The notes under the pieces: model-generated | Databases searched by the model: none | What the model was told of the DNA's origin: nothing | Seen by the model: the letters and a program-made list of their open reading frames with translations, nothing else | Shown here: positions 19,508 through 46,657 of the stretch, piece after piece | Position numbering within the stretch: the first letter of the stretch is position 1 | Layout of the letters: every line of letters begins with the position of its first letter | Assembly: GCA_905479685.1 (NCBI GenBank) | Contig: CAJQNJ010000014.1 | Location: 1 to 46,657 of the forward strand | From: an uncultured Acidimicrobiales bacterium | GTDB taxonomy: Bacteria > Actinomycetota > Acidimicrobiia > Acidimicrobiales > SHLQ01 | Direction: 5' to 3' | DNA: 46,657 nucleotides | Program-made: the position numbers and the translations under genes

Positions 19508-20391
19508 CAGAAGCGGTACAACTGGGCTGGGGTGTCGACCAGGATCTTTTGTCTCAACGCTTCATCGGTCACCCATTCGCCGAGCGCATCGGCGAGGTCT
19601 CCATCGTTGGGGTTGACCTCGTACTTGTTGGGGTGTGGCCAATCGGTACCCCACATGATTCGATCCTCGGCGGCTTCGATCAGTGCGTGCGCCATGGGCT
19701 TGACATCGTCGTAGGGCGGCAGATCGGTGGCGCTGACACGGTTGGCGCCCGAGATCTTCATCCACGTGTTGCCCTCACGCATGAGGCCGAGTAGAGCCTG
19801 GAATCCTGTCGCGCTCACCCCGTCAGCGGCCTTTTGATAGGCGAAGTGTCCAATTGTCATCGGGACCGTGACCGACTCGAAGGTTGGCATCAGATCGATG
19901 ATGTGCGAACCCGGGAACAAGAACTCGATGTGCCAACCGAGATCACGGATCCGATCGCACAGCATGGGTATCTCGTCCATGGTGACCGGCATCCCACCGA
20001 GGTTGTCCGTGTTCAGCCGGACCCCACGCACACCCAATCCGTCAAGCCTGACGAGCTCGTCGTCGGTGATGTCGAGTCCGCACGCAATCACGGCTCGCGC
20101 TCGATCGGGCGTCTCGGCGTTCAGTGCGGACATCCCGTCGAGGATCGCTGAGTTGTCCACTCCGTAGGTGCTGGGTTGTGTGAAGACCACCCGATCGACA
20201 CCCAGTGCCGTGTGAAGATTCCGAAGGTCACCCAGCGTGGATTCTGGAGGGTTGTACCCACGATCGGGTGACAACGGGTAACGATCTTCGAACACGTGCA
20301 CATGGGTATCGATGGTGCCGGTCGGCATTGTCCAATTCGGAGTTTTCGGATGCCTATCAGGGGCAATACAGTCGCGAATCATGGCAGTCAC
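19507..20391 (-). CDS. Amidohydrolase, 2-pyrone-4,6-dicarboxylate lactonase (LigI)-like
   Basis: A TIM-barrel hydrolase of about 294 residues of the COG3618 group, which includes LigI and sugar lactonases. The N-terminal PTGTIDTHVHVFEDRYPLSP carries the H-x-H motif. TLGDLRNLHTALGVDRVVFT and QPSTYGVDNSAILDGM follow, as in LigI, then LGVRGVRLNTDNLGG. The C-terminal metal/general-base motif is IMWGTDWPHPNKYEVN. The family hydrolyses lactone rings formed from aromatic or sugar breakdown. I chose the GTG at 20391 because GAGAGG lies 9 bases upstream; an ATG at 20382 is also possible. It is divergent from the ACMSD-type pseudogene, with a candidate operator between. Substrate is inferred, not shown. 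Confidence 0.85.
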   Translation of the reverse strand: MTAMIRDCIAPDRHPKTPNWTMPTGTIDTHVHVFEDRYPLSPDRGYNPPESTLGDLRNLHTALGVDRVVFTQPSTYGVDNSAILDGMSALNAETPDRARAVIACGLDITDDELVRLDGLGVRGVRLNTDNLGGMPVTMDEIPMLCDRIRDLGWHIEFLFPGSHIIDLMPTFESVTVPMTIGHFAYQKAADGVSATGFQALLGLMREGNTWMKISGANRVSATDLPPYDDVKPMAHALIEAAEDRIMWGTDWPHPNKYEVNPNDGDLADALGEWVTDEALRQKILVDTPAQLYRF

Positions 20392-20439
20392 AGGTCTGGT
20401 CCTCTCACAATTTGCGGCCACGCCGCATCACACAGCCGA

Positions 20440-20458
20440 ATCATATATCATGCACGAT
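20440..20458. promoter_or_regulatory. Candidate GntR-type operator in the divergent lactonase/amidohydrolase region
   Basis: ATCATATATCATGCACGAT matches its own reverse complement at 13 of 19 positions. Its right half, ATCATGCACGAT, resembles 32158-32169 (ATGATGTCAGAT) and 37791-37802 (ATAATGTCAGAT). It sits between two divergent catabolic operons, 48 bp before the plus-strand start. The family of the regulator is a guess from symmetry and AT-rich centre. Confidence 0.45.
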
Positions 20459-20505
20459 GTACGGCACCCACCTGAGCCGTAACCAATTAAGGAGACCCAC
20501 ACCGA

Positions 20506-21524
20506 ATGCGAGCGACACGAACCGACGGACCGGTGATCGACATCCATTGCCACCGAGAGTGCGGACCGGCAACCGAGATCATGGCCATTGAAGAGGAACG
20601 AGTCGGCCGAGTCCGCCTCCAATACGGCAGCGACCTGACCCGCAAGGTGAACAAGGAGCAACTGCAGTACCTGCGCCCGAAGATGGACTTCCTCGAGGAA
20701 CGCATAAAGGACATGGACGCCATGGGCGTCGACATCCAAGCGATCGCAGTTGCCGTGTACCAGTACTACTACTGGGCAGAAGCCGAAGTCGGGGCACGCG
20801 TCAGCCGGGTCGCCAATGAAGAACTGGTCGAGAGCACGTCGAAGTTCAACGGACGATTCAGCCCGCTCGGCACCGTCCCGTTGCAGGACACCGATGCTGC
20901 GATCGCTAACTTCGGTACTGCGTCGAAGAGCTCGGAATGAAGGGTCTGGAGATCGGCACTCATGTCGACAGCACCGAAGAGATCTCGAGCCCACGTCTCG
21001 ATCCCTTCTGGGCCGAGGTCGAACGACTCGGGGCGCTCATCGTGGTGCACACCAACGGCCACACGCACAGGGACCGGTTGCAGGACCACAACTTCCTGAA
21101 CATCATCGCTCATCCATACGAGGCGACACTTGCGACAGCACATCTCATCTTCAATGGTGTGATGGAGCGTTATCCCGATCTCAAGATCGTCGTCGTCCAC
21201 GGCGGTGGCTACCTTCCCGCCTATGCAGGTCGAATCGATCACGCATGGCGAGCCAGGGAAGACGTTCGCGAAGGCGTTCCCCTCCAGCCCAGTGAGTACT
21301 TGAAACGGTTCTTCTTCGACACGATGGTGTTCGAGCCTGATCAGTTGAAGTTCCTCGTCGACAAGTACGGCGCCGAACACGTCATGTTGGGCACGGACTA
21401 CCCCTATGACATGGGTGACGACGATCCTCTCGAGTTCATCGGCAGCGTCCCGGGCCTCACCCAAGACCAGATCGATCTCATCAGCGGCGGAAATGCTGCA
21501 CGACTCCTGGGGTTCACACAATGA
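20506..21524 (+). pseudogene. ACMSD-type amidohydrolase with a -1 frameshift
   Basis: Two adjacent frames together make one ACMSD-family amidohydrolase/decarboxylase. Frame one (20506-20940) begins with GPVIDIHCHRECGP (H-x-H) and runs to VPLQDTDAAIAN before going out of frame. Frame two (20937-21524) holds MKGLEIGTHVDS, VVHTNGHTHRD, VVVHGGGYLPAYAGRIDHAW and HVMLGTDYPYDMGDDDP (metal Asp). Restoring one base near 20910/20911 gives A-N-LRYCVEELGMKGLEIG, exactly the joining sequence of intact homologues, including those at 41118 and 42978. AAGGAG precedes the first ATG. The break leaves an ATGA overlap, so two polypeptides could be made. Sequencing error or true mutation cannot be separated here. 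Confidence 0.85.
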
Positions 21525-22636
21525 GCGGAATCGGACTAGCTGTCATCGGCTGCGGGACAATCGGACGAATCCGAGCAGTGCTCGCTCGCGAACACCCCGG
21601 CGTTACCTGGCTCGGTCTGTGCGACCGACATGCCGAGACGGCAAACAAACTCGCCGAAGACACCGAAGCAGACTTCGTGACCACCGACGTGGCCTCACTC
21701 CTCGCGCGCCCCGAGGTCACCGCAGTGATCGTGGCAACCGATGAACGTGAGCACGTCGACCCCATCATGCAATCGGTTTCGCATGGCTTCCCGATGTTCA
21801 TCGAGAAGCCCTTGGCCACCGATCCACTCGACTCCGCTCGAATTCTGGCCGCTATCGAAGACAACAACGTCGATGCTGTCGTGGGCTACACCAACCGGTT
21901 CAGACGACGTTTCCTTGGCGTGAAACAGAAGCTTCGCGACGAGCAGATCGGCGAGGTCACGAGCGTGGTGACCCGCGCGTTCATGAACCGCATGGTGGTG
22001 TACGCAACACTGGCCAAGGCCGATGATCGGACGAACCTGACACCGATGGTCGTATCGGGAACGCACAGCCTCGACATGTCCATGTGGCTCATGGAGGGCA
22101 AGAAACCTGTCGAGGTGTACGCACGATCGAACGACAAGCTGCTCGGTGAGTGGGGCACAAAGGATTCGACCTTTGGGCTCTTCACGATGGACGATGGCAC
22201 GTTGTTCAGCATGAACATCTCATGGGCCCTGCCGGTCGTCTGGCCCGGCGCCGTGTACGGCCTCGAGATCGGTATCGTCGGCACGAAGGGCGTGATCGAC
22301 ATCGAAGACACCCATCGCGATGTCATCATCGCGTCGGAGGTACCGCAACCAGCCGGCTACACCAGCCGAGGTTTCGAACCACCCAACGAACGAAACGTGG
22401 ACTTCATGGGCAGCTATCCGCCGGGCGATGTGTCCGACGGAATGTTGTGGGGTCCCATGCGCGAGGAAACACTCACGTGGTACAACCGTTTGGCGAAGGG
22501 TTTCAATACCCCTCATGCCACGGCTGCTGAGGGTCACAGCAATCTCATCCTCACCATGGCCATGGACTATTCAGCAAAGACCGGAAAGCCCGTCCAGCTA
22601 CCCATCGAACCCGAACAACTCCTGGAGCTCAACTAA
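21521..22636 (+). CDS. Gfo/Idh/MocA-family oxidoreductase (a)
   Basis: A 371-residue NAD(P)-dependent oxidoreductase. The N-terminal Rossmann fold shows LAVIGCGTIGRIRAVLAREH, and FIEKPLATD carries the EKP motif with the catalytic Lys. The barrel half contains VVSGTHSLDMSMWLMEGKKP with the catalytic His, but Val replaces the Asp four residues before it. FTMDDGTLFSMNISWALP and VGTKGVIDIEDTHRDVII follow. Family members oxidise or reduce sugars, inositols and cyclic acids; LigC of the protocatechuate 4,5-pathway is also one. The start overlaps the amidohydrolase stop by 4 bp. The substrate is unknown. Confidence 0.92.
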   Translation: MSGIGLAVIGCGTIGRIRAVLAREHPGVTWLGLCDRHAETANKLAEDTEADFVTTDVASLLARPEVTAVIVATDEREHVDPIMQSVSHGFPMFIEKPLATDPLDSARILAAIEDNNVDAVVGYTNRFRRRFLGVKQKLRDEQIGEVTSVVTRAFMNRMVVYATLAKADDRTNLTPMVVSGTHSLDMSMWLMEGKKPVEVYARSNDKLLGEWGTKDSTFGLFTMDDGTLFSMNISWALPVVWPGAVYGLEIGIVGTKGVIDIEDTHRDVIIASEVPQPAGYTSRGFEPPNERNVDFMGSYPPGDVSDGMLWGPMREETLTWYNRLAKGFNTPHATAAEGHSNLILTMAMDYSAKTGKPVQLPIEPEQLLELN

Positions 22637-23703
22637 TGAATCAATTGAATGTTGCCGTCATCGGCACCGGCTGGTGTGGTGGAATCCGCGCCGTAGCCTG
22701 TGCCCAACACCCAATCTGCGGCGATCTGCATATCGCCGAGTCCAACCCGGAACGTCTGGCCGAAATGGCCGCAGAGACCAACGCCGTTTCCGCGACCGAT
22801 GACTGGGAGAGCCTCATTGGTCGTAGCGATATCGATGTCGTGATGATTTCTGCGACACCCGAGACGTTGCACTACCCGATGGCCAAAGCCGCGCTCGAAG
22901 CCGGCAAACATGTGCTGCTGGAAAAGCCAATCGCGCTTCGACTGGAAGAAGCTGACGAACTGATCGAGATCGCCGAGGAAAAGAACGTCAAGTTCACGGT
23001 CGGGTATTCACAACGGTTCAATGCGAAACAAGCGCTGGCCAAGCGGTCGTTGGTCAACGGCGACCTCGGCGAGCCGAGCTCGATTCTCGTGAGCCGCCAC
23101 ATCGGGCGCAACCTCGGTGCAAAGATCGGCAATCGCATCAAGCTCTCCCCCGCCGCCATGGAAGCCACCCACGACATCGACTTCGCCATGTGGTGCCTCG
23201 AGCCTCGCCGACCGGTCCGCGTCTATTCGCAGAACTCCTTCGGCGTTCGCCGCGAGATGGGCTTGCCGGACTCACAGATCACCGTCATCACGATGGACGA
23301 TGGCGTCGTCGTCACGATCAATGCCGGGATGTCGCTACCGAATCACTACAAGAACGCTGCGACCACATGGATCGAAGTGATCGGGACCAAGGGCTCGATC
23401 ATCGCCGACGACAGCCACCGCGACATCGTCGTCAACACGACCGAACGTGGCATCGAGTTCCCACTGTCGACCATGCCGGGCGAAGCGGTAGACCAGATGT
23501 ACGCCGGTCCAATGGAGCGAGAGACGATCTCGTTCCTCGAAGCGGTGTTGTACGACCGACCAGCGATGGTCGATCCACGACTCGCTCGCATGACGATGGA
23601 GGTCTACATGGCCGCTGATCTGTCCGCTGACCTCAACGAACCCATCGAGCTGCCACTTTCAGCAGACCAGATGGGCCTCGCTCTGGCGGCTTCGGTCAAG
23701 TAG
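22636..23703 (+). CDS. Gfo/Idh/MocA-family oxidoreductase (b)
   Basis: A 355-residue paralogue of the preceding gene, sharing one base with it (TAATG). Rossmann motif VAVIGTGWCGGIRAVACAQH, LLEKPIALRLEEADELIEIA with EKP, VGYSQRFNAKQALAKRSLVN, and AMEATHDIDFAMWCLEPRRP with the catalytic His retained. The C-terminal barrel carries VITMDDGVVVTINAGMSLPN and VIGTKGSIIADDSHRDIVVN. Two adjacent Gfo/Idh/MocA genes often act on successive or epimeric intermediates (for example oxidise-then-reduce racemisation). The 3' end overlaps the convergent cinA-like gene by 8 bp. Confidence 0.92.
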   Translation: MNQLNVAVIGTGWCGGIRAVACAQHPICGDLHIAESNPERLAEMAAETNAVSATDDWESLIGRSDIDVVMISATPETLHYPMAKAALEAGKHVLLEKPIALRLEEADELIEIAEEKNVKFTVGYSQRFNAKQALAKRSLVNGDLGEPSSILVSRHIGRNLGAKIGNRIKLSPAAMEATHDIDFAMWCLEPRRPVRVYSQNSFGVRREMGLPDSQITVITMDDGVVVTINAGMSLPNHYKNAATTWIEVIGTKGSIIADDSHRDIVVNTTERGIEFPLSTMPGEAVDQMYAGPMERETISFLEAVLYDRPAMVDPRLARMTMEVYMAADLSADLNEPIELPLSADQMGLALAASVK

Positions 23704-29818: not shown

Positions 29819-31039
29819 TCAATTCCCCGGACCGAACAGTCCGAACCGCCACGAGGGATCTCCTGGCGCCATGGTTCCCAATGTCTGCGCCGCCTCACCC
29901 ATGGAACGCGATCTCTCCGCTGCGCTGCGGGCCACACCGAGTTGTTGCGCTTCCCATGCCGAGAGCGCCGTGCGTAGGCCGACGTCGTCGATGCCTCGAT
30001 CGCGAAGGTGGTCTCTCAAGGCCCAAGCGTCAGCGCATGCCTTGGCTGTACCGGCAGCCACGTGCGGTCGCATGACCGTCGCCGCATCACCCAACAAGAC
30101 GATCCGATCGTGCACGAACCGTTCGGCGGCCATGTCGAAGATCGCTTGGATGAACGGTTCGGCACATCCGAGAACGAGTTCCCGCAGCTGTGGAGCCAGA
30201 CCGGTTCGTGCTGCCGAATGTAGTTCATCGACGAATCGATCTTGGAGAAGGCCAGGAGGCATGGTTGTCGGGCGGACGTCTCCATGGCGGTCGGTCATCA
30301 AGTCGTCGAAGTCGGTCCCCTCGACATTGCGGTACCACACGAAGTTGACCGCTCGTTCCCCTCGTTCAATCGAGTCGTCTGGTCCGGGAATCGCATAGGC
30401 GAGAATGTGCGAGTCATCGAGCACTTGGTACACCATGGCGTCGTCGAGGATCTCTGCGGTCGACTCGTGGAGATCACGCTCGAGGATGGTGCCCCGATAT
30501 GCAACGTACCCTGCGTACACCGTGGTCGTCTCGGGCGACACGATCTCGCGGACCGTGGAGCCCATCCCGTCGGCGCCGATCAAGAGATCGCACGAGTACT
30601 CGTCTCCGTTCGTGAAGGAGACCCGAACGGGCTCTTCGTCATCTCCACCTTGCTCCACCCGCTCGACCTGATGCCCGAGGTGATATCGATCCTGGGGCAG
30701 CGCGTCCAGTAGTGCCCGGTAAAGCGTGTTCCATGCTGTGAACCGGTTGTAGGTCGGCGACGCATCGATGATCGTGCCTGCACGATCGATATAGCTCCAG
30801 TTGGTCAACGTGAGCGCAACTTCGGATGCCTCGCGATCGCTTGACCCGAGGCCACCGCCACGCTCGACGAAGTAGCGTTCCGTTATCGGCAGCACGACAA
30901 TTCCGGCACCGCGTCCGTCGAGTGCGCTCAGAGATCGCTCGAATACCTGCACATCTTCACCTAGCTCGTGGAGAAGCACTGCCGTTGTAAGGCCACCAAT
31001 CGAGCCACCTGCAATACCTATCCGGAGCGGAGGATTCAT
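29819..31039 (-). CDS. FAD-dependent monooxygenase, 2,6-dihydroxypyridine hydroxylase-like
   Basis: A 406-residue group A flavoprotein hydroxylase. Motifs: GIAGGSIGGLTTAVLLHELG (GxGxxG FAD-binding), DLLIGADGMGSTVREIVS (DG motif) and IVLLGDAATVMRPHVAAGTA followed by KACADAWAL (GD motif). The HVAAGTAKA variant of the GD region, with RGAGIVVLPI near the N-terminus, recalls 2,6-dihydroxypyridine 3-monooxygenase of nicotine degraders rather than PHBH. It uses NAD(P)H and O2 to hydroxylate an aromatic or heteroaromatic ring. It overlaps the enolase-superfamily gene by 4 bp. Substrate identity is inference from resemblance. Confidence 0.87.
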   Translation of the reverse strand: MNPPLRIGIAGGSIGGLTTAVLLHELGEDVQVFERSLSALDGRGAGIVVLPITERYFVERGGGLGSSDREASEVALTLTNWSYIDRAGTIIDASPTYNRFTAWNTLYRALLDALPQDRYHLGHQVERVEQGGDDEEPVRVSFTNGDEYSCDLLIGADGMGSTVREIVSPETTTVYAGYVAYRGTILERDLHESTAEILDDAMVYQVLDDSHILAYAIPGPDDSIERGERAVNFVWYRNVEGTDFDDLMTDRHGDVRPTTMPPGLLQDRFVDELHSAARTGLAPQLRELVLGCAEPFIQAIFDMAAERFVHDRIVLLGDAATVMRPHVAAGTAKACADAWALRDHLRDRGIDDVGLRTALSAWEAQQLGVARSAAERSRSMGEAAQTLGTMAPGDPSWRFGLFGPGN

Positions 31040-36625: not shown

Positions 36626-36652
36626 TCGTTCTCAAGCTGTATCGTTCTCAAG
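36626..36652. repeat. Short direct repeat between two oxidoreductase genes
   Basis: TCGTTCTCAAG occurs at 36626-36636 and 36642-36652, a 16-base period. The second copy includes the stop of the upstream gene. It looks like a small slippage duplication of the gene end; a regulatory role is not indicated. Confidence 0.4.
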
Positions 36653-37760
36653 CCGCGGTGAGCGGAAGAGTAACCGTTGCGCCGCTGGAGGCAGCGCGCT
36701 GAATTGCGAGGGTTACCTCGAGGGTATGACGGGCGGTCTCGGGAGGTGCAATGTTGCACGACGTACCGACCGACAGATGGTCGAGCCAGGCCCGCGTCTC
36801 GGCTGCGAGCGGACCGATGAACTCACCCAGCGCCCAGTCCCCGGGTGTTCCGCTCGATAGGAACACTGCATTCACATCGTGGTCCGGCAGGTATACGTGG
36901 GGAATCCCCTTGTTGCTGTACATGACCTGATCGGTGTGATCATCATCGATCAATACGACACCTTCCGTGCCGAGGAGTTCGAGCCGAGCCGCATGTCCGA
37001 GCGCTGGGTACTTCTCTGGCAGCGCGTAACACACCCCGAGACTAATGGCGGCTCCACCGTCGTAGCGAAGCATTGCCCATGTCAGGTCGTCGGTCTCGTG
37101 CCCGGCCTCTTCGAGCACACCCCGTTGACCGATCGCACTGACTTCGACGATGCGTTGCCCCTCGAAGAACCAGTTCATCAGATCGACGTAATACGTCAGC
37201 GCGTCGACCACAGGGGTCGCGTCCGGATTACGCCCCAACATCGCCAGAGCCTGCGAGCGAGAGTTGTACACCCGTGCGGTCGCTCCGATGAGGCGCCCGA
37301 GCCGTTCTTGGACGATCTGCTCTTTGGCGATGTGGTACCGCTTGCGAAACCGCCTGCTGTACCCGACATGGAGTGTGCCAGTGCTCTGCGCTGCAGCCGC
37401 GAGGATCGTGTCGGCGTCATCGAGCGTCAGTGCGATGGGCTTTTCGACGAGCACGTCCTTCCCCAACCGAAGAGCCTCGACCACCGGCTCGACGTGTTCG
37501 CCCTCGCTCGTCGCGACGACAACAGCAGTGACCGACGGATGGCCGATGATCTCGGCGTTGTCCGTTGACACGAGTTCAGCTCCGACCGCTCGAGCAAGTT
37601 TGCTTGCAGCATCCTCGTTCGCGTCGGCCACCCCGATGAATCGCACCGCTGGATGGTCGGCGGCCAATCTCGCTCGGAAGCCACCGATTCGGCCTGAACC
37701 AATAATTCCGAGCCCGATCTCTTTGCGTACTGCCCGCGCTCGCTCTGCATGTTCGGACAC
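36648..37760 (-). CDS. Gfo/Idh/MocA-family oxidoreductase (e), catalytic His replaced by Tyr
   Basis: A protein of about 370 residues. LGIIGSGRIGGFRARLAADH (Rossmann), VLVEKPIALTLDDADTILAA (EKP), VGYSRRFRKRYHIAKEQIVQ. The active-site segment TPVVDALTYYVDLMNWF keeps Asp but has Tyr where His is expected, exactly as in the copy at 27848. The end matches too (AAETRAWLDHLSVG / ADETRAWLDHLAVG). The GTG at 37760 follows AAGGAGG by 8 bases; an upstream GTG at 37778 lies inside this ribosome-binding region. It is divergent from the MFS gene. Confidence 0.9.
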   Translation of the reverse strand: MSEHAERARAVRKEIGLGIIGSGRIGGFRARLAADHPAVRFIGVADANEDAASKLARAVGAELVSTDNAEIIGHPSVTAVVVATSEGEHVEPVVEALRLGKDVLVEKPIALTLDDADTILAAAAQSTGTLHVGYSRRFRKRYHIAKEQIVQERLGRLIGATARVYNSRSQALAMLGRNPDATPVVDALTYYVDLMNWFFEGQRIVEVSAIGQRGVLEEAGHETDDLTWAMLRYDGGAAISLGVCYALPEKYPALGHAARLELLGTEGVVLIDDDHTDQVMYSNKGIPHVYLPDHDVNAVFLSSGTPGDWALGEFIGPLAAETRAWLDHLSVGTSCNIAPPETARHTLEVTLAIQRAASSGATVTLPLTAA

Positions 37761-37783
37761 CGACTGCACCTCCTTCACTCCGG

Positions 37784-37802
37784 ATGCTACATAATGTCAG
37801 AT
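37784..37802. promoter_or_regulatory. Candidate operator at the MFS transporter start
   Basis: ATGCTACATAATGTCAGAT shares its right half, ATAATGTCAGAT, with 32158-32169 (ATGATGTCAGAT, one difference). The left half is degenerate. It overlaps the MFS start codon at 37794, in the 33-bp gap from the divergent Gfo gene. Because ATGTCAGAT also encodes Met-Ser-Asp at the start of both genes, coincidence is possible. Confidence 0.4.
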
Positions 37803-38963
37803 GTGGGCAAACGGTCGCTGATCGGATCTCCGATTCCATTGATGGTCGCCCTCAACGTCATCGGGGTGAACCTGATCACACCGGTCCTACCTTCCTATGC
37901 CGCGCACTTCGATGTTGGGATCGCCGCTGCGTCGTTCCTGATCACCGTCTTCGCGCTTGCACGAATGTCGTTCCGGTTACCGGCTGGTTCTCTGTCCGAT
38001 CGATATGGGTCGAGAGTCGTCTGCATGGGCGGTGGGCTTGTACAGGCCTGCGGTGCGCTGCTGGCGACGGTCGCTCCGGGCCTCGGGGTCCTTCTCGTCG
38101 CTCGTGCGATTCAAGGAATAGGGTCGGCACTCTTTGGCACCTCGGTCAATCGTTATCTCCTTGTCGTCACCGACAAGCAAGATCTCGGTCGGTCGATCGC
38201 CGGATTCCAAGGCGGGATTGTTCTTGGGGGAACGTTGGGGCCGCTGATCGGCGGAGTGGTCGCACAAGAGTTCGGCATCTTTGCTCCGTTCTTCGTGCAA
38301 GCCGCCGTCGCGTTCGCGCTCGTAGGCGTGAGCTGGATCGTGATCAAACCCAACGACGGAAGCCACTCGGCCGCGAATCGAGGTGCTCCCCGTCCAACGC
38401 TGCGCAGCATTCTGGCGGTTCCAGGATTTCGCGTCGTCATGCTGAGCGGGTTCAGTTTGTTCTTCGTTCGGGCCGGAGCGATCAACGTCGTGGTGCCTGC
38501 ATTCGCAGATGAGGTGCTCGCCCTCTCACCAGCTCAGATCGGTGCCGTGATATCACTCGGCTCGATCGTCTCCTTGCTCTTCATGCCTCTGGCCGGGAAG
38601 CTCGCTGACTCCATCGGGCGTTGGCAAGTCGCTGTGGCGGGTGCGTTGACGACATCAGGAACCGTTGCGCTCTACGGTCTCGTCGATACCGCCCTTCAGC
38701 TCTACCTTGTCGCCGCGCTGACTGGCGTGGGCATCGGCCTTGCTGCGGTTGCCCTTCCGACCATGATCGGTGACATCGCCCCCCCAGGAACCGAAGGTCG
38801 CGCATCGGGCGTCTACCGAATGGCGAACGATCTCGGTTGGATCTTTGGTCCCGCCACGCTCGGCCTCCTCGCTGATCGATCACAATACGGATTGGCCTTC
38901 GTGGTGGCTGGCCTTCCGTTCGTGCTCGCTGCCGCTCTGCTCAGCCGAAGTCGAAGCAGCTAG
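37794..38963 (+). CDS. Major facilitator superfamily transporter
   Basis: A 389-residue inner-membrane transporter with about 12 helices in two halves. MFS motif A is seen in the first half as LPAGSLSDRYGSRVVCMGGG, and its copy in the second half as LAGKLADSIGRWQVAVAGAL. GIVLGGTLGPLIGGVVAQEF resembles the drug-efflux motif C (G-x3-G-P-x2-G-G). The DHA1-like pattern suggests drug or metabolite efflux, but uptake of the island's substrate cannot be excluded. The ATG at 37794 has no clear ribosome-binding site and may be leaderless. The stop overlaps the stop of the convergent DUF3179 gene (shared CTAG). Confidence 0.9.
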   Translation: MSDVGKRSLIGSPIPLMVALNVIGVNLITPVLPSYAAHFDVGIAAASFLITVFALARMSFRLPAGSLSDRYGSRVVCMGGGLVQACGALLATVAPGLGVLLVARAIQGIGSALFGTSVNRYLLVVTDKQDLGRSIAGFQGGIVLGGTLGPLIGGVVAQEFGIFAPFFVQAAVAFALVGVSWIVIKPNDGSHSAANRGAPRPTLRSILAVPGFRVVMLSGFSLFFVRAGAINVVVPAFADEVLALSPAQIGAVISLGSIVSLLFMPLAGKLADSIGRWQVAVAGALTTSGTVALYGLVDTALQLYLVAALTGVGIGLAAVALPTMIGDIAPPGTEGRASGVYRMANDLGWIFGPATLGLLADRSQYGLAFVVAGLPFVLAAALLSRSRSS

Positions 38964-40177
38964 TCATGAACAAGCGTCTCGGGATAGAACTGCGTCCAGG
39001 CGAACCAGAAATCGTTGCGATGGGTGATCGTCTCGAGCTGGGCGCCGGCCAGCGGTCCGTCGAGCGCCTGGCCCAGGATCGTCCACACCGAACCGGTCTC
39101 GGTATCGATGAAGCGTTCACCCTCTACCGAGAACGTCAACTTCCTCCCGTCGACGACAGGATCGAGCACCAGCGCTGATCCGATTGGCCGGCCATCGGCG
39201 ACTTGTGATCGGTTCAGCGCGTCTGCGGTGTCCGGAGACCCCCAGAACACCACGAGGTCCCGATCTCCAACTCGATCATTCACCACAGGCGACTCCACGA
39301 GAACACTGAATGGATAGGCCTTGTGCACATCGCCGACGGAGACCCCGACCACTCGCTCCATCGCAAAGTATCGACCATCCCTGTTTCGCTCGAACAAGAT
39401 CAATGGAGCAAATCGTCCGCTGAGCCCCTCATAGGGATTCCTGCCGTACGAAAGGTCGAAACCGGTGTCTCGGGACAGCGAAACACCATCAGGAAATCCC
39501 GCCCGGAAGTCACCGAAGCTCACGATCGACGTCGGCGCCATGTCGAGCTCGGTTCCTGCGAAGTCTCCGACGATCGCCTCCCCAGTTGCCTGTTGCCAGA
39601 GCGAGACGGACCTGTCATCCCACATGACCAGATCGTTGTTTCGCAGCAGCCCGGACACTCCGAATCGTAGGACCTCGCCATCAACCCGCCGCTCGAACGC
39701 AACCGCAGAATTGCAGAGGGGGCAGAAGGTGACCGAAATCGCCACTCCCCCGATTTCATCGTTGACGATCTCGTGGCGGGTGAGGATCGAGAGTGGAAAG
39801 AATCGCACGTCACCGTTCAACTGCAAGAGGACCCCTGGCTCCCGATCGAGCATCCACTCTGCTGCTGCTTCGGGCGATTCGTAGAGCGGCGCATCGAGAG
39901 GTGGGATCGCGTCGCGCGGCTCACTTGCTCCGACGGCCAGAACCAGTTCCGAGAGTTCAACGGTCGAGTTGGTCCAATCGGTGGGCCAAGCTCGCGTCGC
40001 GAACTCCGCGTTCTTCTGCAGGGCGGCACGAGCCTCATCACGCTCTACCGAGTCATTGGCGCTCTGTGTCACAGATTCTGCGAGACCCGACGAACACGCA
40101 GCCGACACGAGACTGACGGCAAGAACTGCCGCCACCCACGTCCACGATGCAGGCCTCATGTACATGAAAGGCCGCAT
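38960..40177 (-). CDS. DUF3179-domain lipoprotein
   Basis: A protein of about 405 residues with a lipoprotein signal (WTWVAAVLAVSLVSAACSSG, lipobox SAAC). The DUF3179 core is clear: LTRHEIVNDEIGGVAISVTF, CPLCNSAVAFERRVDGEVLR, FGVSGLLRNNDLVMWDDRSV, SLWQQATGEAIVGDFAGTEL. The conserved C-P-L-C pair and His-Glu suggest a metal or redox site, but the function of the family is unknown. Possible starts are ATGs at 40177, 40165 and 40159; all keep the signal. It is the last gene of the long minus-strand operon, 8 bp after the CMD fusion. Confidence 0.9.
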   Translation of the reverse strand: MRPFMYMRPASWTWVAAVLAVSLVSAACSSGLAESVTQSANDSVERDEARAALQKNAEFATRAWPTDWTNSTVELSELVLAVGASEPRDAIPPLDAPLYESPEAAAEWMLDREPGVLLQLNGDVRFFPLSILTRHEIVNDEIGGVAISVTFCPLCNSAVAFERRVDGEVLRFGVSGLLRNNDLVMWDDRSVSLWQQATGEAIVGDFAGTELDMAPTSIVSFGDFRAGFPDGVSLSRDTGFDLSYGRNPYEGLSGRFAPLILFERNRDGRYFAMERVVGVSVGDVHKAYPFSVLVESPVVNDRVGDRDLVVFWGSPDTADALNRSQVADGRPIGSALVLDPVVDGRKLTFSVEGERFIDTETGSVWTILGQALDGPLAGAQLETITHRNDFWFAWTQFYPETLVHD

Positions 40178-40185
40178 CGGTCTGT

Positions 40186-41121
40186 CTACATTCCCGAAAG
40201 GTCGTCCTGCACTCCGTCTCGTCGGGCAACTCGTGCGGCCACGATGCGCAAGACGGCCTCGCATCTGTCTTCAGGTACGAGCTCGGTCAGCCGACCCTCG
40301 TCATCGAGGATTCGGATCAAATCATCGAACGCGGCGGGCATGACGTAGGGATGACCGAAGAATGCCGTCGTGTGAAACACCACCTCGAGGACCTCTCGCG
40401 GTGCTGCTCCTGCGCGGAGCGCGGCGCGCATGTGCCGCCTCGACTGATGCGTCTCGCCGAGCGAAAGCGTGGCACCAACAACACACAACAATCTGGTGCG
40501 GTCATCGAGCACGCCACGGCCGTACATTCCGTCATAGACGGCGTCTTCCCAGATCTGGAGAAACTCTGGATCGAGCGCATCGAGCACATCGATCATGTTG
40601 ATGTGGTGACCGGGACGGAGTCGAAGCCCATTCGAGATCCCATGCCAGCCGTATCGATCGATCAACGTAGCGAGACGAGGATCAGAAGCATCGGCAGGCG
40701 ACCACCCGCGACGTTCGTCCTCGACGACGCGAGATGAACGATCGACAATCCGCCCGCTCAGGTCAGGAAGATGCTCGCCACGACGGTCGAGTACTCGTTC
40801 GAACGCTTCACACGCCTGTGCCACCACCCACGGGCCGGTGTACACGTATGCCTGGAGCATCACCTCGAGCAACTCTCCGGCGTCGACGCCATCTGACAAC
40901 GCAGCGTCGAGGTTTTCCTCGAGCGGCTCGGTCTGTCTGGTCACCGTGTACTGGCAGGTCAGAACCAAGTAGCGGGTGCGTCGATCGAGTTCGGTACGTG
41001 CGAGCAGTCGCGAAATGTGGTTGCGCCAGGTGTGTGCGAACTCTGGATCAAGGCGACCGAACAAATCGCCCAGCCGTTCGGACGAACTCGGAAGGAAGTC
41101 CCCCAACTCCTGGCCGGTCAC
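40186..41121 (-). CDS. Tandem carboxymuconolactone decarboxylase-like (CMD) protein
   Basis: A 311-residue protein that is two CMD/AhpD-like helical domains fused head to tail. Domain one: LDRRTRYLVLTCQYTVTRQT, then SDGVDAGELLEVMLQAYVYT. Domain two: LDDRTRLLCVVGATLSLGET with HQSRRHMRAALRAGAAPREV and LEVVFHTTAFFGHPYVMPAA. The R-T-R-L start and the RAGA-x-x-x-E-L/V-LE-V pattern are diagnostic. Neither domain has the AhpD CxxC, so it is not a peroxidase-type member. It starts at a GTG overlapping the amidohydrolase stop (GTGA). A lactone decarboxylase or isomerase role is inferred from the family. Confidence 0.87.
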   Translation of the reverse strand: MTGQELGDFLPSSSERLGDLFGRLDPEFAHTWRNHISRLLARTELDRRTRYLVLTCQYTVTRQTEPLEENLDAALSDGVDAGELLEVMLQAYVYTGPWVVAQACEAFERVLDRRGEHLPDLSGRIVDRSSRVVEDERRGWSPADASDPRLATLIDRYGWHGISNGLRLRPGHHINMIDVLDALDPEFLQIWEDAVYDGMYGRGVLDDRTRLLCVVGATLSLGETHQSRRHMRAALRAGAAPREVLEVVFHTTAFFGHPYVMPAAFDDLIRILDDEGRLTELVPEDRCEAVLRIVAARVARRDGVQDDLSGM

Positions 41122-42113
41122 AGGCCCAGGAGCGCTGCTGCGGTGTCGCCGAGAACTGCGGCCCGCTCAGCATCGTTCAGGTCACTTCCGTTGAGCCACT
41201 CGACAGGATCAGCCTGCCCCATGTCAGCGGGGAAGTCTGTACCGAGCATCACTTTGTCGATTCCGACGACATCCACCAGTCGGCGCAACATGGCGTAGTC
41301 GTAGACGAGGGAGTCGTACCACAATCGGTTCAGGTACTCCGATGGGAACATCGAGATCTGTGTCCGAGCCTCGCGACGGACTTCGAACCCATGATCGAAA
41401 CGGGCGGCGCCACAACATGCATACCCGCCGCCGTGAGCGAACAACAGCTTGAGGTTCGGCAGCCGGTCGAGAACTCCGCCATGGATGATCGACGCGATCG
41501 CAATCGTGGTCTCCGTCGGGTTCGCGATCGAGTTGTGCAAGTGATAGCGCGGCAAGTGTTTCTCGAGCCGACGGTCAGATGGGTGGATGAAGACGAGCGC
41601 CCCGAGGTCTTGCGCGGCTTCGAGCACCGGGAACAGGTGTGGCTCATCCCAGTTCGCTCCATCGACGTGGGTCCCCACACATGCGCCGATCATGCCGTCG
41701 ATGGTCATGACCCGTTCGAGCTCGGCGATCGCCATATCGGTGTCTTGCATCGGAAGTGCCCCGTAGCCAGCAAAACGCGTCGGGCGTTGCTCGATGAAAC
41801 CTGCTATCTCATCGTTGACCGCAACCGAGGCGGCCGCGCCGTTGTCTGCGTCGAGATAGTGGCGAAAAAAGATTGGGTTGAGGGAAAGGACTTGCATGTC
41901 GACGCCCATCTCATCCATCCGTTCGATACGTCGCTCCATTGACTCATAGTGAGCCTTGCCCCCCATTCCTTCCCGTCGTTCACCAGTGATGATTACGGGA
42001 CGACCGATGTCGTCGTTCTCGATGGTCGACCCGAACCATGTTCCACCCGACTCTGCCGCGGCGATCGCTGAACGAGGAAGCAGATGTGCATGTACGTCGA
42101 TCACGCGGGTCAT
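41118..42113 (-). CDS. ACMSD-type amidohydrolase/decarboxylase (a)
   Basis: A 331-residue TIM-barrel metal enzyme of the amidohydrolase_2 family (ACMSD, 5-carboxyvanillate and gamma-resorcylate decarboxylases, LigJ-type hydratases). VIDVHAHLLP carries the N-terminal H-x-H, CVGTHVDGANWDEPHLFPVL and LVFIHPSDRRLEKHLPRYHL follow, LLFAHGGGYACCGAARFDHG has the barrel His, and VMLGTDFPADMGQADPVEWL holds the metal Asp. The start is the ATG at 42113 overlapping the upstream CMD gene (ATGA); longer frames run into that gene. It is very similar in layout to the copy at 42978. Confidence 0.9.
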   Translation of the reverse strand: MTRVIDVHAHLLPRSAIAAAESGGTWFGSTIENDDIGRPVIITGERREGMGGKAHYESMERRIERMDEMGVDMQVLSLNPIFFRHYLDADNGAAASVAVNDEIAGFIEQRPTRFAGYGALPMQDTDMAIAELERVMTIDGMIGACVGTHVDGANWDEPHLFPVLEAAQDLGALVFIHPSDRRLEKHLPRYHLHNSIANPTETTIAIASIIHGGVLDRLPNLKLLFAHGGGYACCGAARFDHGFEVRREARTQISMFPSEYLNRLWYDSLVYDYAMLRRLVDVVGIDKVMLGTDFPADMGQADPVEWLNGSDLNDAERAAVLGDTAAALLGL

Positions 42114-42523
42114 TTCGCAGCCACCAAAGCGCCATCGGCGGCAACAGTCCAGCCTTCGTCTTCGAGTTGCGCGATCGCCTCGAGCATGCATGTCACGCCG
42201 TACGTGATGACCCGAGCGCCCGCAGGATTCACGGCGACCATGAGCGCTTCTGCGATCTCCTCAGGATGCGCTCCCAGGGTCAGCGCCTTTTTGATATGGG
42301 CTGTCAGGTGAGGCTGGTTGTGCGGATTGGAACCGAGAACGGCCAGCGCCACGATGTGGAACAACTCGTGTTCTTTCTCATCGAACCGTCGGGGCCTCTT
42401 GCGGATGATCTCGTCGAGTTGGAGCATCGTTTCGACGTACTCGGGAAACCGTTCGGCGATCCATCCGTGTGCCGGGTACGTCTTGCCCCGTCTCGCTGCA
42501 AACTCCTCTGCCAACGAACTCAT
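42110..42523 (-). CDS. Carboxymuconolactone decarboxylase-like protein (a)
   Basis: A 137-residue single CMD-type helical protein. Core: KEHELFHIVALAVLGSNPHN, QPHLTAHIKKALTLGAHPEE and IAEALMVAVNPAGARVITYG. There is no CxxC, and several His line the usual active-site helix. GGAG lies before the ATG. It is coupled by 4-bp overlaps to the CMD gene before it and the amidohydrolase after it. It probably forms an oligomer, perhaps with the neighbouring CMD subunit. Confidence 0.87.
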   Translation of the reverse strand: MSSLAEEFAARRGKTYPAHGWIAERFPEYVETMLQLDEIIRKRPRRFDEKEHELFHIVALAVLGSNPHNQPHLTAHIKKALTLGAHPEEIAEALMVAVNPAGARVITYGVTCMLEAIAQLEDEGWTVAADGALVAAK

Positions 42524-42963
42524 GATGGCTCTTCTCCAAACTTCTGGTCGGCATGATCAGGACGGTCTGAAATCCGGTAGCCCACGTCGGGTGGCACATA
42601 CTCGCCACGATCCGTGAGGACGTCTACGAGCGAGCGCAGACCATGGATCAGCGTTCGCGAACCCGATGGTGTCCAAGCCACCAGAATCGCATCGATCAGT
42701 TCGGTGGTTGTCGCACCAGCGTCGAGCGCCTTGTGCATGTGGTTCTTCGCCACCGTGCCTTCGCCGAGCACCGACGCTGTGGTCGCGTACACGAGCTCGC
42801 GGTACTTGAGTTCCAGACCGTCGGGGCGATCGGTGTTGACTTGTGTCCACGTCGCATCGAAGGCTCGAAGGAACTCCGGTGCTTCGCTCGCGAGCAGAAC
42901 TTGCCACTCGAACAAGTAGCCACGTTTCTCGTACATCTCGTCGAGAAGTCCCTGATCGGCCAT
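42520..42963 (-). CDS. Carboxymuconolactone decarboxylase-like protein (b)
   Basis: A 147-residue CMD-type protein: LEYKYRELVY-like start LELKYRELVYATTASVLGEG, TVAKNHMHKALDAGATTTEL and IDAILVAWTPSGSRTLIHGL. The AhpD Cys pair is replaced (GEGT), and the helix His of NHMHKAL is kept. I chose the ATG at 42963, which has GGAGG six to eight bases upstream; an in-frame start at 43020 would run into the upstream amidohydrolase. It follows that gene by 14 bp and overlaps the next CMD by 4 bp. The two single-domain CMDs together mirror the two-domain fusion at 40186. Confidence 0.87.
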   Translation of the reverse strand: MADQGLLDEMYEKRGYLFEWQVLLASEAPEFLRAFDATWTQVNTDRPDGLELKYRELVYATTASVLGEGTVAKNHMHKALDAGATTTELIDAILVAWTPSGSRTLIHGLRSLVDVLTDRGEYVPPDVGYRISDRPDHADQKFGEEPS

Positions 42964-42977
42964 CTTTGCCTCCGAGG

Positions 42978-43988
42978 CTATGCGAGCAACGTAGTGAGAT
43001 TCTCCGACAGAATCTTCCACTGGTCCTCGTCTGAGAGCGTGGGGTGCGACCGGATGAAGTCCACCGGCCGGGGCTCTCCCATGTCGGCTGGATAGTCACT
43101 GCCCAACACGACCTGGCCGATTCCAGCGAGATCGATGACCTGGTCGAGGGTGCGATGTCCGTGGACCAACGAGTCGAAGTACAAGTCGCGCAGGTAGTCC
43201 GAAGGCAACTTCGAGATCCCTTGCGCTTCAGCTCGAATCGAATAGCCGTGATCCATCCGGGCGATTCCCAGGCAGCCATACCCTCCACCATGAGCGAAAC
43301 ACAGCTTCAGGTCAGGGAGGCGATCGAGTACTCCGCCAAAGATGAGACTTGCGATCGAGATGGTGGTCTCGAGTGGATTCCCGACCAAGTTCTTGAGGTG
43401 GTAGTTCTGCAGGAACGACTGGGCGCGCCCTCGAGTTGGATGCACGAACAGCAGCACTCCGAGGTCATTGGCTGCCTGCAACACGGGAAAGAGGTCCGGC
43501 GAGTCCCAGTCAGTCCCGTCGACGTGGGTACCGATGATCGCCCCATCGAAGCCAAGGTCGCGGACGCAACGTTCCAGCTCGTCGACCGACGCCTTGGGGT
43601 CCTGCAGTGGGAGATGGGCCAATCCGCGATATCGATCGGGATGTTCGCGGATGACATCGGCGATGTCGTCGTTGGTCTCGACGGCCATTCGCAGTGCGTC
43701 GGCCGGAGGTGTGGTGTACCAGATCAGGCTCGGGCTGAGCGACAGCATGTGCACGTCCACCCCGATGTCGTTCATCGACCCAACGCGTTCGGCAGGAGTT
43801 TCGAGCGGAGTCGGCCAGGGGAGCGCAAATGGCGGCTTTCCACCCACCGAACTCGTGATCTTCCCACGCTCGTCTCGACTGAATTCAATGCCGTAGTGCA
43901 AACCACCCGCAGCGGCATTGTGCGCGAGTCGTGTGGGAACGATGTGGCTGTGTACGTCGATTACTTGACCTTGCATGTCTGACCCCAT
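42978..43988 (-). CDS. ACMSD-type amidohydrolase/decarboxylase (b)
   Basis: A 336-residue paralogue of the 41118 gene. VIDVHSHIVPTRLAHN (H-x-H), HLPLQDPKASVDELERCVRD, IIGTHVDGTDWDSPDLFPVL, LLFVHPTRGRAQSFLQNYHL, LCFAHGGGYGCLGIARMDHG and VVLGSDYPADMGEPRPVDFI (metal Asp). The shared THVDG-x-WD-x-P-x-LFPVL block shows close kinship within the cluster. Starts at 43988 or 43976 are possible. It lies directly after the ABC permease genes, so import and first processing are likely coupled. Confidence 0.9.
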   Translation of the reverse strand: MGSDMQGQVIDVHSHIVPTRLAHNAAAGGLHYGIEFSRDERGKITSSVGGKPPFALPWPTPLETPAERVGSMNDIGVDVHMLSLSPSLIWYTTPPADALRMAVETNDDIADVIREHPDRYRGLAHLPLQDPKASVDELERCVRDLGFDGAIIGTHVDGTDWDSPDLFPVLQAANDLGVLLFVHPTRGRAQSFLQNYHLKNLVGNPLETTISIASLIFGGVLDRLPDLKLCFAHGGGYGCLGIARMDHGYSIRAEAQGISKLPSDYLRDLYFDSLVHGHRTLDQVIDLAGIGQVVLGSDYPADMGEPRPVDFIRSHPTLSDEDQWKILSENLTTLLA

Positions 43989-43991
43989 TGG

Positions 43992-44885
43992 CTACTTGCC
44001 ACCACCGGATGTCAATCCGGCCACGACGTACCGTTCCACCCTCGAGTAGACGAGGATGAACGGCAGCACGGTGAGAATCGCGAACGCGGCCTCAGCCGGG
44101 AAGTTCGATATCCCTTCGCTCTGCCCCAATTTGAAGAGTGCGAATGGCAACGTTCTCGTGTCTGGTGTGGTCGTGAGCACGAGTACCAACGTGAACTCGT
44201 TCCACGCTTCGCGGAAGGCCAGGACACCGATCGTGATCAGGGCGGGTGCCGCCAAGGGCATCACGATGTATCGAATTCGTTGGAAGAGGCTTGCGCCGTC
44301 GACTGCGGCGGCCTCTTCGATCTCACGCGGAATCCCCTGGAAGAATCCGACCATCAGCCACACTGCCAACGGCGCCAAAGTTCCGGCGTACACGAAGATC
44401 AGCGTGATCCGCTTGTCGAGAAGGCCCGCCGATACCGCCAGACGATAGATCGGCACCAGAACCCCGATACTCGGAACGAGTCGAGGAAGCAGGGTGAACA
44501 AGAGCAAGAGGTGGCGGCCGCGGAAATTGAATCGAGCGAAGGCATACGCGGCAGGCAAGCTGATCACGATGGTGACGATGGTCGTGCCGATGCCAACGAT
44601 CACACTGTTGATGAACGCTGACGTGAAGTTGGGGTCCGTGATGACCTCGTTGTACGCATTGAGCGTCGGGTCCTCTGGGATCAGACTCAGGTTGGAGAAC
44701 GTCTCGACGCGGGTCTTGAACGAAACCGAAAGGGTCACCAAGAAGGGTAGAAATGTCCAGATCATGAGGAGCACGAGCGGCACAGCCGAGAGCACCCTGC
44801 GAAGTTTGCGCACCAAAGGCGTCCGCGGCTTTTTCCCTACGGCTTCGGTTCGACCGGTTTCTGGTGGCATTGTTGCAGTAGTCAT
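43992..44885 (-). CDS. ABC carbohydrate-type importer permease, MalG-like
   Basis: A 297-residue inner-membrane subunit of a CUT1-type importer. About six helices, first PLVLLMIWTFLPFLVTLSVS. The cytoplasmic EAA loop that contacts the ATPase is clear: EIEEAAAVDGASLFQRIRYI followed by VMPLAAPAL. SLPAAYAFARFNFRGR is also typical of MalG. The gene for the ATPase is not in the window. It shares one base with the MalF-like gene (TGATG). CUT1 systems carry sugars and glycosides, but relatives also take up other polar compounds. Confidence 0.93.
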   Translation of the reverse strand: MTTATMPPETGRTEAVGKKPRTPLVRKLRRVLSAVPLVLLMIWTFLPFLVTLSVSFKTRVETFSNLSLIPEDPTLNAYNEVITDPNFTSAFINSVIVGIGTTIVTIVISLPAAYAFARFNFRGRHLLLLFTLLPRLVPSIGVLVPIYRLAVSAGLLDKRITLIFVYAGTLAPLAVWLMVGFFQGIPREIEEAAAVDGASLFQRIRYIVMPLAAPALITIGVLAFREAWNEFTLVLVLTTTPDTRTLPFALFKLGQSEGISNFPAEAAFAILTVLPFILVYSRVERYVVAGLTSGGGK

Positions 44886-45844
44886 CAGCTCGGGATCTCA
44901 AATCGCTTGGCAATGCGGACATACATCAGCGTCAGTACTGCATTGAGCACTAGAATAACGGTGGCGAGCGCGAGCGCTTCGTTGAATTTGAGGGCTCGGA
45001 AGGCAATGTTGTACATCTCCATCGCCATCGTCGTGGTGGAGCCGAGCGGTCCACCACCGGTGAGGGCAAGAACCACGCCGAGCCCGGTGAGTGTCGAGTA
45101 ACTCAGCCACACGGTTGCGATGACCAACTGCGGGACGAGCAGAGGTATGGTCACGAACCTGGCTCGTTCGAGGGGTGACGCCCCATCGACGAGCGCCGCG
45201 TCGAAGTAAGACTTGTCGATCGTCATCAACCCGCCCAGTAGGAGGAGGACCGTCAGTGGGAGGTCGGTCCACACCTGGGTCATAATCACGACGATCATCG
45301 CGGTTTTTGTGTCCGAGAGCCATAACGGACCATCGATGCCGAACCACGCCAGGAAGCTGTTGATGACTCCGAGGTCCCCATTGAACATCAGTCGAAACAT
45401 CACTGCGGCTGCGACATTCGAGATGAGGTACGGAGCCAATGTGGCTGCTCGCATCCAGCGGAACTTTCCCACCGCCCGGTACAAGGCAAACGAGAAGAAC
45501 AGGCCCAAGGTGAGCCCTACGGTGACGTTGCCGGCAACGAAGATTCCGGTGCGATACAGCGAAGCCCAGAAGTCGCTGCCTTTGAAGAGGTCTGTGTAGT
45601 TGTCGAGCCCGACCCATTCCTCGTCTAAACCGAGCTCTGGAGCCCTGAAGAGGCTCTGATAGATCCCTGCCAGCACGGGGTAGGCCAGAATTGCGCTGAC
45701 CACCATGACGGCGGGAAACGAGAAGAGGTAGGGAAGCGCTTTGTTCTGGCCAATCAGGCCAGGTTGGCTCCTGTTCTCGGTCGCCGTATTCGCCGACTTC
45801 TTCTTTTTCTTCGGCTTCTTCGACGATGCTGCTACAGCCGTCAC
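44885..45844 (-). CDS. ABC carbohydrate-type importer permease, MalF-like
   Basis: A 319-residue partner permease. A lysine-rich cytosolic N-terminus (KKPKKKKKS) precedes the first helix, LFSFPAVMVVSAILAYPVLA. The EAA loop reads YFDAALVDGASPLERARFVT followed by IPLLVPQL. GLTLGLFFSFALYRAVGKFR and GVVLALTGGGPLGSTTTMAM are standard for MalF/UgpA-type proteins. It begins at GTG with GGGGTGG upstream. It is separated from the substrate-binding gene by two strong hairpins. Confidence 0.93.
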   Translation of the reverse strand: MTAVAASSKKPKKKKKSANTATENRSQPGLIGQNKALPYLFSFPAVMVVSAILAYPVLAGIYQSLFRAPELGLDEEWVGLDNYTDLFKGSDFWASLYRTGIFVAGNVTVGLTLGLFFSFALYRAVGKFRWMRAATLAPYLISNVAAAVMFRLMFNGDLGVINSFLAWFGIDGPLWLSDTKTAMIVVIMTQVWTDLPLTVLLLLGGLMTIDKSYFDAALVDGASPLERARFVTIPLLVPQLVIATVWLSYSTLTGLGVVLALTGGGPLGSTTTMAMEMYNIAFRALKFNEALALATVILVLNAVLTLMYVRIAKRFEIPS

Positions 45845-45982: not shown

Positions 45983-46657
45983 CTACAGGCCATCCAGAAT
46001 CGGCTGATACTTGTCAGCCAGAGCCTGAGGATCACTCGCTGATCCAGAGATGATCTCCTGCCACATGTCCTCGAGTGTGAGCTCGACCTCGCCGCCGTTC
46101 AGACCCGAAGGCGTGGCATCGCTGCCAAGGTAGGCCGCCCGAAGGTTGTCGTCGAAGAATGGCCAAATCTCATCAAGGCGTGGGTCGGCAAGCATGTCAG
46201 TGTTACGTGCGGGCACAGAGCCACCAGCAGCATTCTCCACGAGGATGTCAGCTTGAGACAGATGACGAATAGCAAGCATCGCCTCATACGGGTTCTCGCT
46301 TGCGCTCGTCACCGCCCAGGTGCGTGCAGCCGAGACCTGGTTGCCGTCACCACGGGTTGGCGATGGGACAACGCCCCAGCCAGTTCCAAGGTTGAATCCA
46401 TCGATCTCGTTGAACTCACCAGCAACGGTGAAGCCATCGAGGATGAATGCAGCACGCTGGCCAGCAAATGCGCCACGTGCCTCATCTTCGCCCCAGGACA
46501 CAGCTTGTTCTGGGAGAAGTCCCTCTGCAGATGCGGTGAGGAACCAGTCCAACGTGTAGAGGCCACCCTCGGACTGCAGATCAGGAACTGCGCCGTCGAA
46601 TGGCGCTCCTGCAGCGGCGAGGAAGGTCTTCAGCGTCGTGATGCCTGTTCCAGGCAG
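45983..46657 (-). CDS. ABC extracellular substrate-binding protein, C-terminal part
   Basis: The minus-strand frame runs from the window edge to a TAG at 45983, giving about 224 C-terminal residues; the signal peptide and N-lobe are cut off. The sequence is typical of family 1 (MalE/UgpB-like) solute receptors: EARGAFAGQRAAFILDGFTV, WGVVPSPTRGDGNQVSAART, WAVTSASENPYEAMLAIRHL, GSVPARNTDMLADPRLDEIW and a final ADKYQPILDGL. It is the first visible gene of the importer operon. The ligand-binding residues cannot be placed. An open frame continues across the boundary with no start seen. Confidence 0.9.
   Translation of the reverse strand: MPGTGITTLKTFLAAAGAPFDGAVPDLQSEGGLYTLDWFLTASAEGLLPEQAVSWGEDEARGAFAGQRAAFILDGFTVAGEFNEIDGFNLGTGWGVVPSPTRGDGNQVSAARTWAVTSASENPYEAMLAIRHLSQADILVENAAGGSVPARNTDMLADPRLDEIWPFFDDNLRAAYLGSDATPSGLNGGEVELTLEDMWQEIISGSASDPQALADKYQPILDGL

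Follow-up and report, generated by a model that had tools for sequence, protein, structure and literature searches.

Does a run of amidohydrolase and carboxymuconolactone decarboxylase (CMD) genes, repeated once and lying behind a sugar-type importer, encode a catabolic pathway in an uncultured Acidimicrobiales bacterium? The genes in question lie at positions 40186 to 43988 of contig C14, which was analyzed over its whole length of 46,657 bp (hereafter the window) and belongs to a 3.2-Mb genome bin that is 85% complete. They encode two ACMSD-like amidohydrolases (AH1 and AH2), two single-domain CMD proteins (CMD1 and CMD2) and a CMD-CMD fusion protein. The initial annotation had proposed an undescribed pathway. 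We found no publication describing this pairing or a pathway of this layout in the open-licence papers searched, and an undescribed pathway is plausible, although all the proteins belong to known families. The locus is a conserved, apparently undescribed operon of known enzyme families, and as a pathway it is a candidate only. The reading that we favor, with a probability of about 0.5, is a catabolic operon in which the amidohydrolases decarboxylate and CMD partners act on a carboxylated compound.

Organization of the cassette

On the minus strand, the gene order is solute-binding protein (SBP), permease A (permA), permease B (permB), AH1, CMD1, CMD2, AH2 and CMD-CMD fusion. AH1 (42978..43988) is separated by a gap of 3 bp from permB and by about 14 bp from CMD1 (42520..42963), whose start at ATG 42963 is favored by the orthologues, with GTG at 43020 as a possible alternative. 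CMD2 (42110..42523), AH2 (41118..42113) and the fusion gene (40186..41121) follow with 4-bp overlaps at CMD1/CMD2, CMD2/AH2 and AH2/fusion, and the two permease genes share 1 base. Given this junction spacing, the genes from the SBP to the fusion very likely form one operon. All five open reading frames initially annotated were found on the minus strand, and their order, coordinates and family assignments were correct.

Conservation and distribution of the cassette

We scanned the genome contigs for AH1 and AH2 and observed four close loci (69-79%), L037, L038, L039 and L040, on contigs G701:C170, G457:C7, G639:C291 and G678:C117, respectively, each counted once. L037 and L038 contain the complete series from SBP to fusion; L039 starts within CMD2 and continues with AH2 and the fusion, and L040 contains AH2 and the fusion. 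Since the same gene order is present in other genomes at 65-88% identity (73-74% for AH1 in L037 and L038), the order of the cassette is not a product of chance. The full layout is kept in three genomes of one genus, in family f135, which is not the family of the window. In genome G678 (family f65, a third family), AH1-CMD1-CMD2 is located on contig C455 and AH2-fusion-ApbA on contig C117. In genome G604, an unrelated CAP/SLH gene lies between AH1 and AH2-fusion-ApbA, and SBP-permA-permB-MocA is on the other strand. From these two arrangements, AH2-fusion is the constant core of the cassette and AH1-CMD1-CMD2 a second unit; the relatives are draft bins, in which binning errors are possible. 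The repeated amidohydrolase-CMD module proposed at the outset thus corresponds to two modules, found on separate contigs in G678, and the gene-neighbourhood comparison recovered the pairing in other genomes, with a conserved layout in f135 and a split one in f65.

The f135 genomes carry an opposite-strand universal stress protein gene between permB and AH1 (L038:5518-6015). A 214-residue open reading frame in this interval of L038 was considered as a further cassette gene and rejected, as the codon-position changes fit the opposite-strand frame.

In a class-wide profile search, the fusion was present in 7 of 395 genomes (that of the window, three of f135 from one genus and three of f65) and CMD2 in 6 of 390, every one of them among the seven with the fusion. 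The hypergeometric probability of this co-occurrence is about 1e-12 if genomes are treated as independent, although they are only partly so. Among 376 genomes sampled across the phylum, only the genome of the window and one distant single-domain CMD were recovered. Single-protein searches of the order and phylum samples returned nothing outside the window, although the class-wide profile search did find relatives. In the sampled data, the cassette is therefore limited to a few genomes of the class Acidimicrobiia.

Outside this clade, a visual count of amidohydrolase-CMD adjacency in the match lists of 39 further genomes of this order gave at least 5 cases, a lower bound, for 3.0 expected (P 0.18). 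A general linkage of the two families across the order is not supported at this near-chance level, so that the pairing first noted is conserved within the clade but was not shown to exceed chance beyond it. Three distant ACMSD-like genes on plasmids adjoin FAD-dependent oxidoreductase, FAH or aldehyde dehydrogenase genes and not CMD genes, and three plasmid relatives of CMD1 have no adjacent amidohydrolase. The near-chance adjacency in the order would suit genes that are merely neighbors and share no pathway. This explanation is largely disfavored, and we hold it to be extremely unlikely, given the overlapping gene order conserved across families and the near-perfect co-occurrence. A second amidohydrolase-CMD-amidohydrolase run was observed in the genome of the window (L019, G000:C76, 754-5421), behind enoyl-CoA hydratase and CoA-transferase III genes; its amidohydrolases and CMD are not close relatives of those of the cassette.

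The amidohydrolases retain the catalytic residues of ACMSD

Both amidohydrolases belong to PF04909 (AH1, 2.5e-38 and 132.9 bits; AH2, 3.3e-39 and 135.8 bits; gathering cut-off 26.4). The best PDB match of both is ACMSD, with E-values of 2e-61 and 1e-55 (211 and 192 bits), followed by 5-carboxyvanillate, uracil-5-carboxylate and dihydroxybenzoate decarboxylases; the LigJ and LigY structures are weaker matches (about 1e-7 to 1e-11). The roles of H6, H8, H174, H224, D291 and R235 in ACMSD have been described, Arg51 and Arg239 (residues 47 and 235 of the human enzyme) bind the two carboxylates of the substrate, and kcat is 142-fold lower in the H228A mutant and 26-fold lower in W194A (PMC11650718). 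In our alignment (human ACMSD numbering), the zinc ligands H6, H8, H174 and D291 and the catalytic H224 are conserved in AH1, AH2 and their orthologues, and the intersubunit Arg235 is Arg in every AH1 and AH2 row. Trp191 is replaced by Asn in all these rows, Trp being confined to human ACMSD and L049, and Arg47 aligns, in a poorly aligned stretch, to Leu in AH1 and Met in AH2. No gene of the kynurenine pathway, that of 3-hydroxyanthranilate dioxygenase included, was observed in the scanned neighborhood. An identity of AH1 and AH2 with ACMSD itself was rejected, as W191 is replaced and the second substrate arginine (R47) is probably absent. With the catalytic residues retained and the ACMSD tryptophan lost, AH1 and AH2 likely keep the zinc chemistry but act on another substrate than ACMSD.

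The CMD proteins lack the AhpD redox motif

To our knowledge, most members of the widespread CMD family other than PcaC and AhpD have no assigned function. CMD1 (8e-11, 42.2 bits), CMD2 (4e-9, 36.8 bits) and both halves of the fusion (1.2e-16, 60.9 bits over two stretches) matched PF02627 above its gathering cut-off of 23. The CxxC motif, the redox centre of AhpD, is absent from CMD1, CMD2 and both fusion halves, and the description of these proteins as CxxC-less thus applies to all four domains. The C-terminal half of the fusion gives an ungapped 91-residue alignment with 2AF7 and contains the conserved His; the N-terminal half is without it and has Asn there in most orthologues. The AlphaFold model of the fusion (pLDDT 76.8, pTM 0.76) retrieved 4G9Q in a fold search (E 8e-5, TM 0.59/0.75), then 2AF7. 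CMD2 has five invariant His (52, 56, 68, 72 and 76), and its predicted model (pLDDT 78.7) gave weak matches to CMD-fold entries such as TM1620. The best sequence matches are 2Q0T for CMD2 (1e-8) and 2QEU for CMD1 (3e-5).

TM1620, annotated as possibly antioxidative, is among the nearest single-domain PDB relatives of CMD2, which would fit AhpD-like antioxidant or regulatory proteins carried along in the operon and not pathway enzymes. The lack of CxxC in every CMD and the strict co-occurrence of CMD2 and the fusion with the cassette argue against such passengers, and we regard them as very unlikely.

Origin of the two modules

AH1 and AH2 are 43-45% identical and form one clade with a support of 99/98 in a tree of 49 ACMSD-like sequences; the two most likely arose by duplication, in agreement with the paralogy proposed in the initial annotation. 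The nearest relative of CMD1 is CMD2 (25-27% identity, 1e-10), and that of the N-terminal half of the fusion is its own C-terminal half (30%, 1e-11), the match between CMD1 and the fusion being weak. A CMD tree that included PDB sequences placed the fusion with the PcaC-like 2AF7 and 4G9Q and the single CMDs with 2Q0T, 2QEU and 1VKE; the support of this split, 86/90, is not decisive. A duplication of the whole amidohydrolase-CMD-CMD unit was rejected, since CMD1 pairs with CMD2 and the fusion halves with each other and the tree separates the two pairs. The proposal of one duplicated cassette therefore stands for the sister amidohydrolases but not for the CMD pairs, which lie on different branches. 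Because the CMD pairs do not repeat the sisterhood of the amidohydrolases, the composition of an amidohydrolase plus two CMD domains was probably arrived at twice.

A more elaborate form of the pathway, which we consider unlikely, would have two carbon-removing steps, each with a dedicated amidohydrolase-CMD complex, and CMD pairs recruited independently from two subfamilies; CMD2 would have a His-rich site, possibly binding a metal, where AhpD has its cysteines.

Importer and neighboring genes

The importer genes are of the sugar (CUT1) type, with an SBP of family 1 and two permeases. The C-terminal part of the SBP (SBP_bac_1) lies at 45983..46657 on the minus strand and is open at the contig end; permA (44885..45844, minus strand) and permB (43992..44885, minus strand) are BPD_transp_1 proteins, UgpA-like and MalG-like, with 70-76% and 75% identity, respectively, to the copies of L037 and L038. 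No ATPase of its own was observed among the scanned importer neighbors in the window, C237 and L038, an ATPase elsewhere not being sought; the importer could possibly use a shared ATPase encoded elsewhere. Positions 46517-46657 are identical over exactly 141 bp to G000:C237:1-141, inside the SBP gene; C237, also a contig of this genome, begins with the N-terminal part and completes the SBP of the window. C14 and C237 adjoin in the genome. C237 contains MocA, MR_MLE, EamA, MFS, D-2-hydroxyacid dehydrogenase, TauD, SDR, ApbA (64%), two AHx, HpcH, MocAx and FMN dehydrogenase genes, as well as thiolase and CoA-transferase genes. The cluster as first delimited is thus present, but the real one is bigger and has more pathway genes on C237.

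In the f135 genomes, the order is MR_MLE-MocA3-ApbA-SBP-permA-permB-AH1-CMD1-CMD2-AH2-fusion, followed by MFS (opposite strand), MocA4, HpcH (opposite strand), a further amidohydrolase (AHx), MocAx and FMN-dependent dehydrogenase. The closest entry to MR_MLE is a muconate cycloisomerase, and HpcH is near 2-dehydro-3-deoxy-galactarate aldolase. The neighbors common to the relatives (MR_MLE, MocA, ApbA and HpcH) suggest that the compound broken down is carboxylated and of a ring or sugar-acid type. In the window, the MFS transporter gene (37749..38963, plus strand) is convergent with the cassette and syntenic in L037, L038, L039 and L091, and MocA4, a Gfo/Idh/MocA oxidoreductase (36648..37778, minus strand), is syntenic in L038 and L091 (74% identity). 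A DUF3179 gene (38960-40179) lies directly downstream of the fusion, and L039 has a truncated match to DUF3179 in this position; in f135, the fusion is followed directly by the MFS gene.

Proposed pathway and alternatives

In the catabolic operon that we favor, the CUT1-type importer would take up a probably carboxylated, ring- or sugar-acid-like compound, and AH1 and AH2 would decarboxylate related intermediates by non-oxidative C-C cleavage. The fusion may partner AH2, its C-terminal half acting as a PcaC-like decarboxylase of a lactone-type intermediate and its N-terminal half being probably structural, and the CMD1-CMD2 pair may partner AH1; the CMD sets would perform PcaC-like decarboxylation or lactone handling. 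Earlier and later steps would fall to the MLE-like enolase, the MocA dehydrogenases, the ApbA-like reductase, the HpcH aldolase and the FMN hydroxyacid dehydrogenase, with MocA and ApbA carrying out oxidation and reduction, and HpcH the aldol cleavage.

Several points weigh against this proposal. The PcaC model TIGR02425 (cut-off 155.7 bits) was missed by the fusion (56.8 bits) and CMD2 (14.3 bits) and did not match CMD1. CMD1 and CMD2 were not found in G604, where AH1, AH2 and the fusion are present. Neither a ring-cleaving dioxygenase nor any known substrate signature is present in the cluster. PF04909 also includes hydratases and lactonases, so that decarboxylation by AH1 and AH2 is a putative reaction. 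Finally, in G678, two enoyl-CoA hydratase genes follow AH1-CMD1-CMD2, the first with a 4-bp overlap; this arrangement points to CoA-thioester chemistry, and a CoA-transferase III gene is nearby.

The breadth of PF04909 leaves room for AH1 and AH2 as LigI- or LigJ-like hydrolases or hydratases of lactones or oxo-acids, the CMDs alone decarboxylating; LigJ and LigY are among the weaker structure matches, and the linked MLE-like enolase could produce lactones. In sequence, the amidohydrolases nevertheless resemble ACMSD and other decarboxylases (1e-55 to 1e-61) much more than LigJ, and two residues of ACMSD, its catalytic His and its intersubunit Arg, are retained, which makes this alternative possible but doubtful. 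The genes in G678 would also agree with CoA-thioester substrates, prepared or cleaved by a CoA-transferase and a crotonase, with the amidohydrolases and CMDs modifying ring or chain, as would the CoA genes ahead of the C76 run and the thiolase and CoA-transferase genes on C237. However, no CoA genes adjoin the cassette in the window and none were seen in the f135 genomes, and the C76 proteins are not close to those of the cassette; we judge such substrates to be distinctly improbable. With CMD proteins set two times beside zinc enzymes of decarboxylase-like type, and with an importer, the conserved operon offers a small, concrete group of genes for assigning a function to CMD proteins, and it hints at a carbon source of uncultured Acidimicrobiia.

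Other loci on the contig and in relatives

At 18617-23703, the genes HIBDH2-AH3-(split amidohydrolase)-MocA1-MocA2 are syntenic with Ilumatobacter L050 (69-83%) and apparently form another conserved amidohydrolase/MocA cluster. The split gene (20491-21521; plus-strand frames 20491-20937 and 20910-21521), beside MocA1/MocA2 and AH3, has an uninterrupted copy in L050 (2803-4131) and is for this reason a pseudogene or an assembly error. In Alphaproteobacteria (L043, L046, L047, L048, L051 and L054-L057), a distant ACMSD-like gene recurs convergent with an FAD monooxygenase gene, whose product is 34-39% identical to that of 29819-31039 in the window. A full-length pyruvate:ferredoxin oxidoreductase (14014-17565, 1183 residues) adjoins a pyruvate phosphate dikinase-like gene (10803-13580).

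Comparison with known systems

In the protocatechuate 4,5-cleavage pathway, two PF04909 enzymes, the PDC lactonase LigI and the oxalomesaconate hydratase LigJ, act in sequence. The cassette likewise has two PF04909 enzymes, of weak sequence similarity to these, and we know of no CMD partners of LigI or LigJ. The all-helical CMD fold is shared with the alkylhydroperoxidase AhpD, from which the four domains of the cassette differ in being without CxxC. The closest sequences to CMD2 and CMD1, 2Q0T and 2QEU (the latter from Burkholderia xenovorans), are remote and function-unassigned structures. Compared with PcaC (TIGR02425; 2AF7, 4G9Q), the fusion is far below the cut-off, its N-terminal half is without the His and no beta-ketoadipate pathway neighbors were seen, whereas its C-terminal half aligns ungapped to 2AF7 with the conserved His, and 4G9Q is a double-domain form. 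AH1 and AH2 fall outside the branch with human ACMSD and are paired with CMD genes, without kynurenine-pathway neighbors; with ACMSD (4IGM/2WM1/2HBV), they nevertheless share full-length homology, the zinc ligands, H224 and R235.

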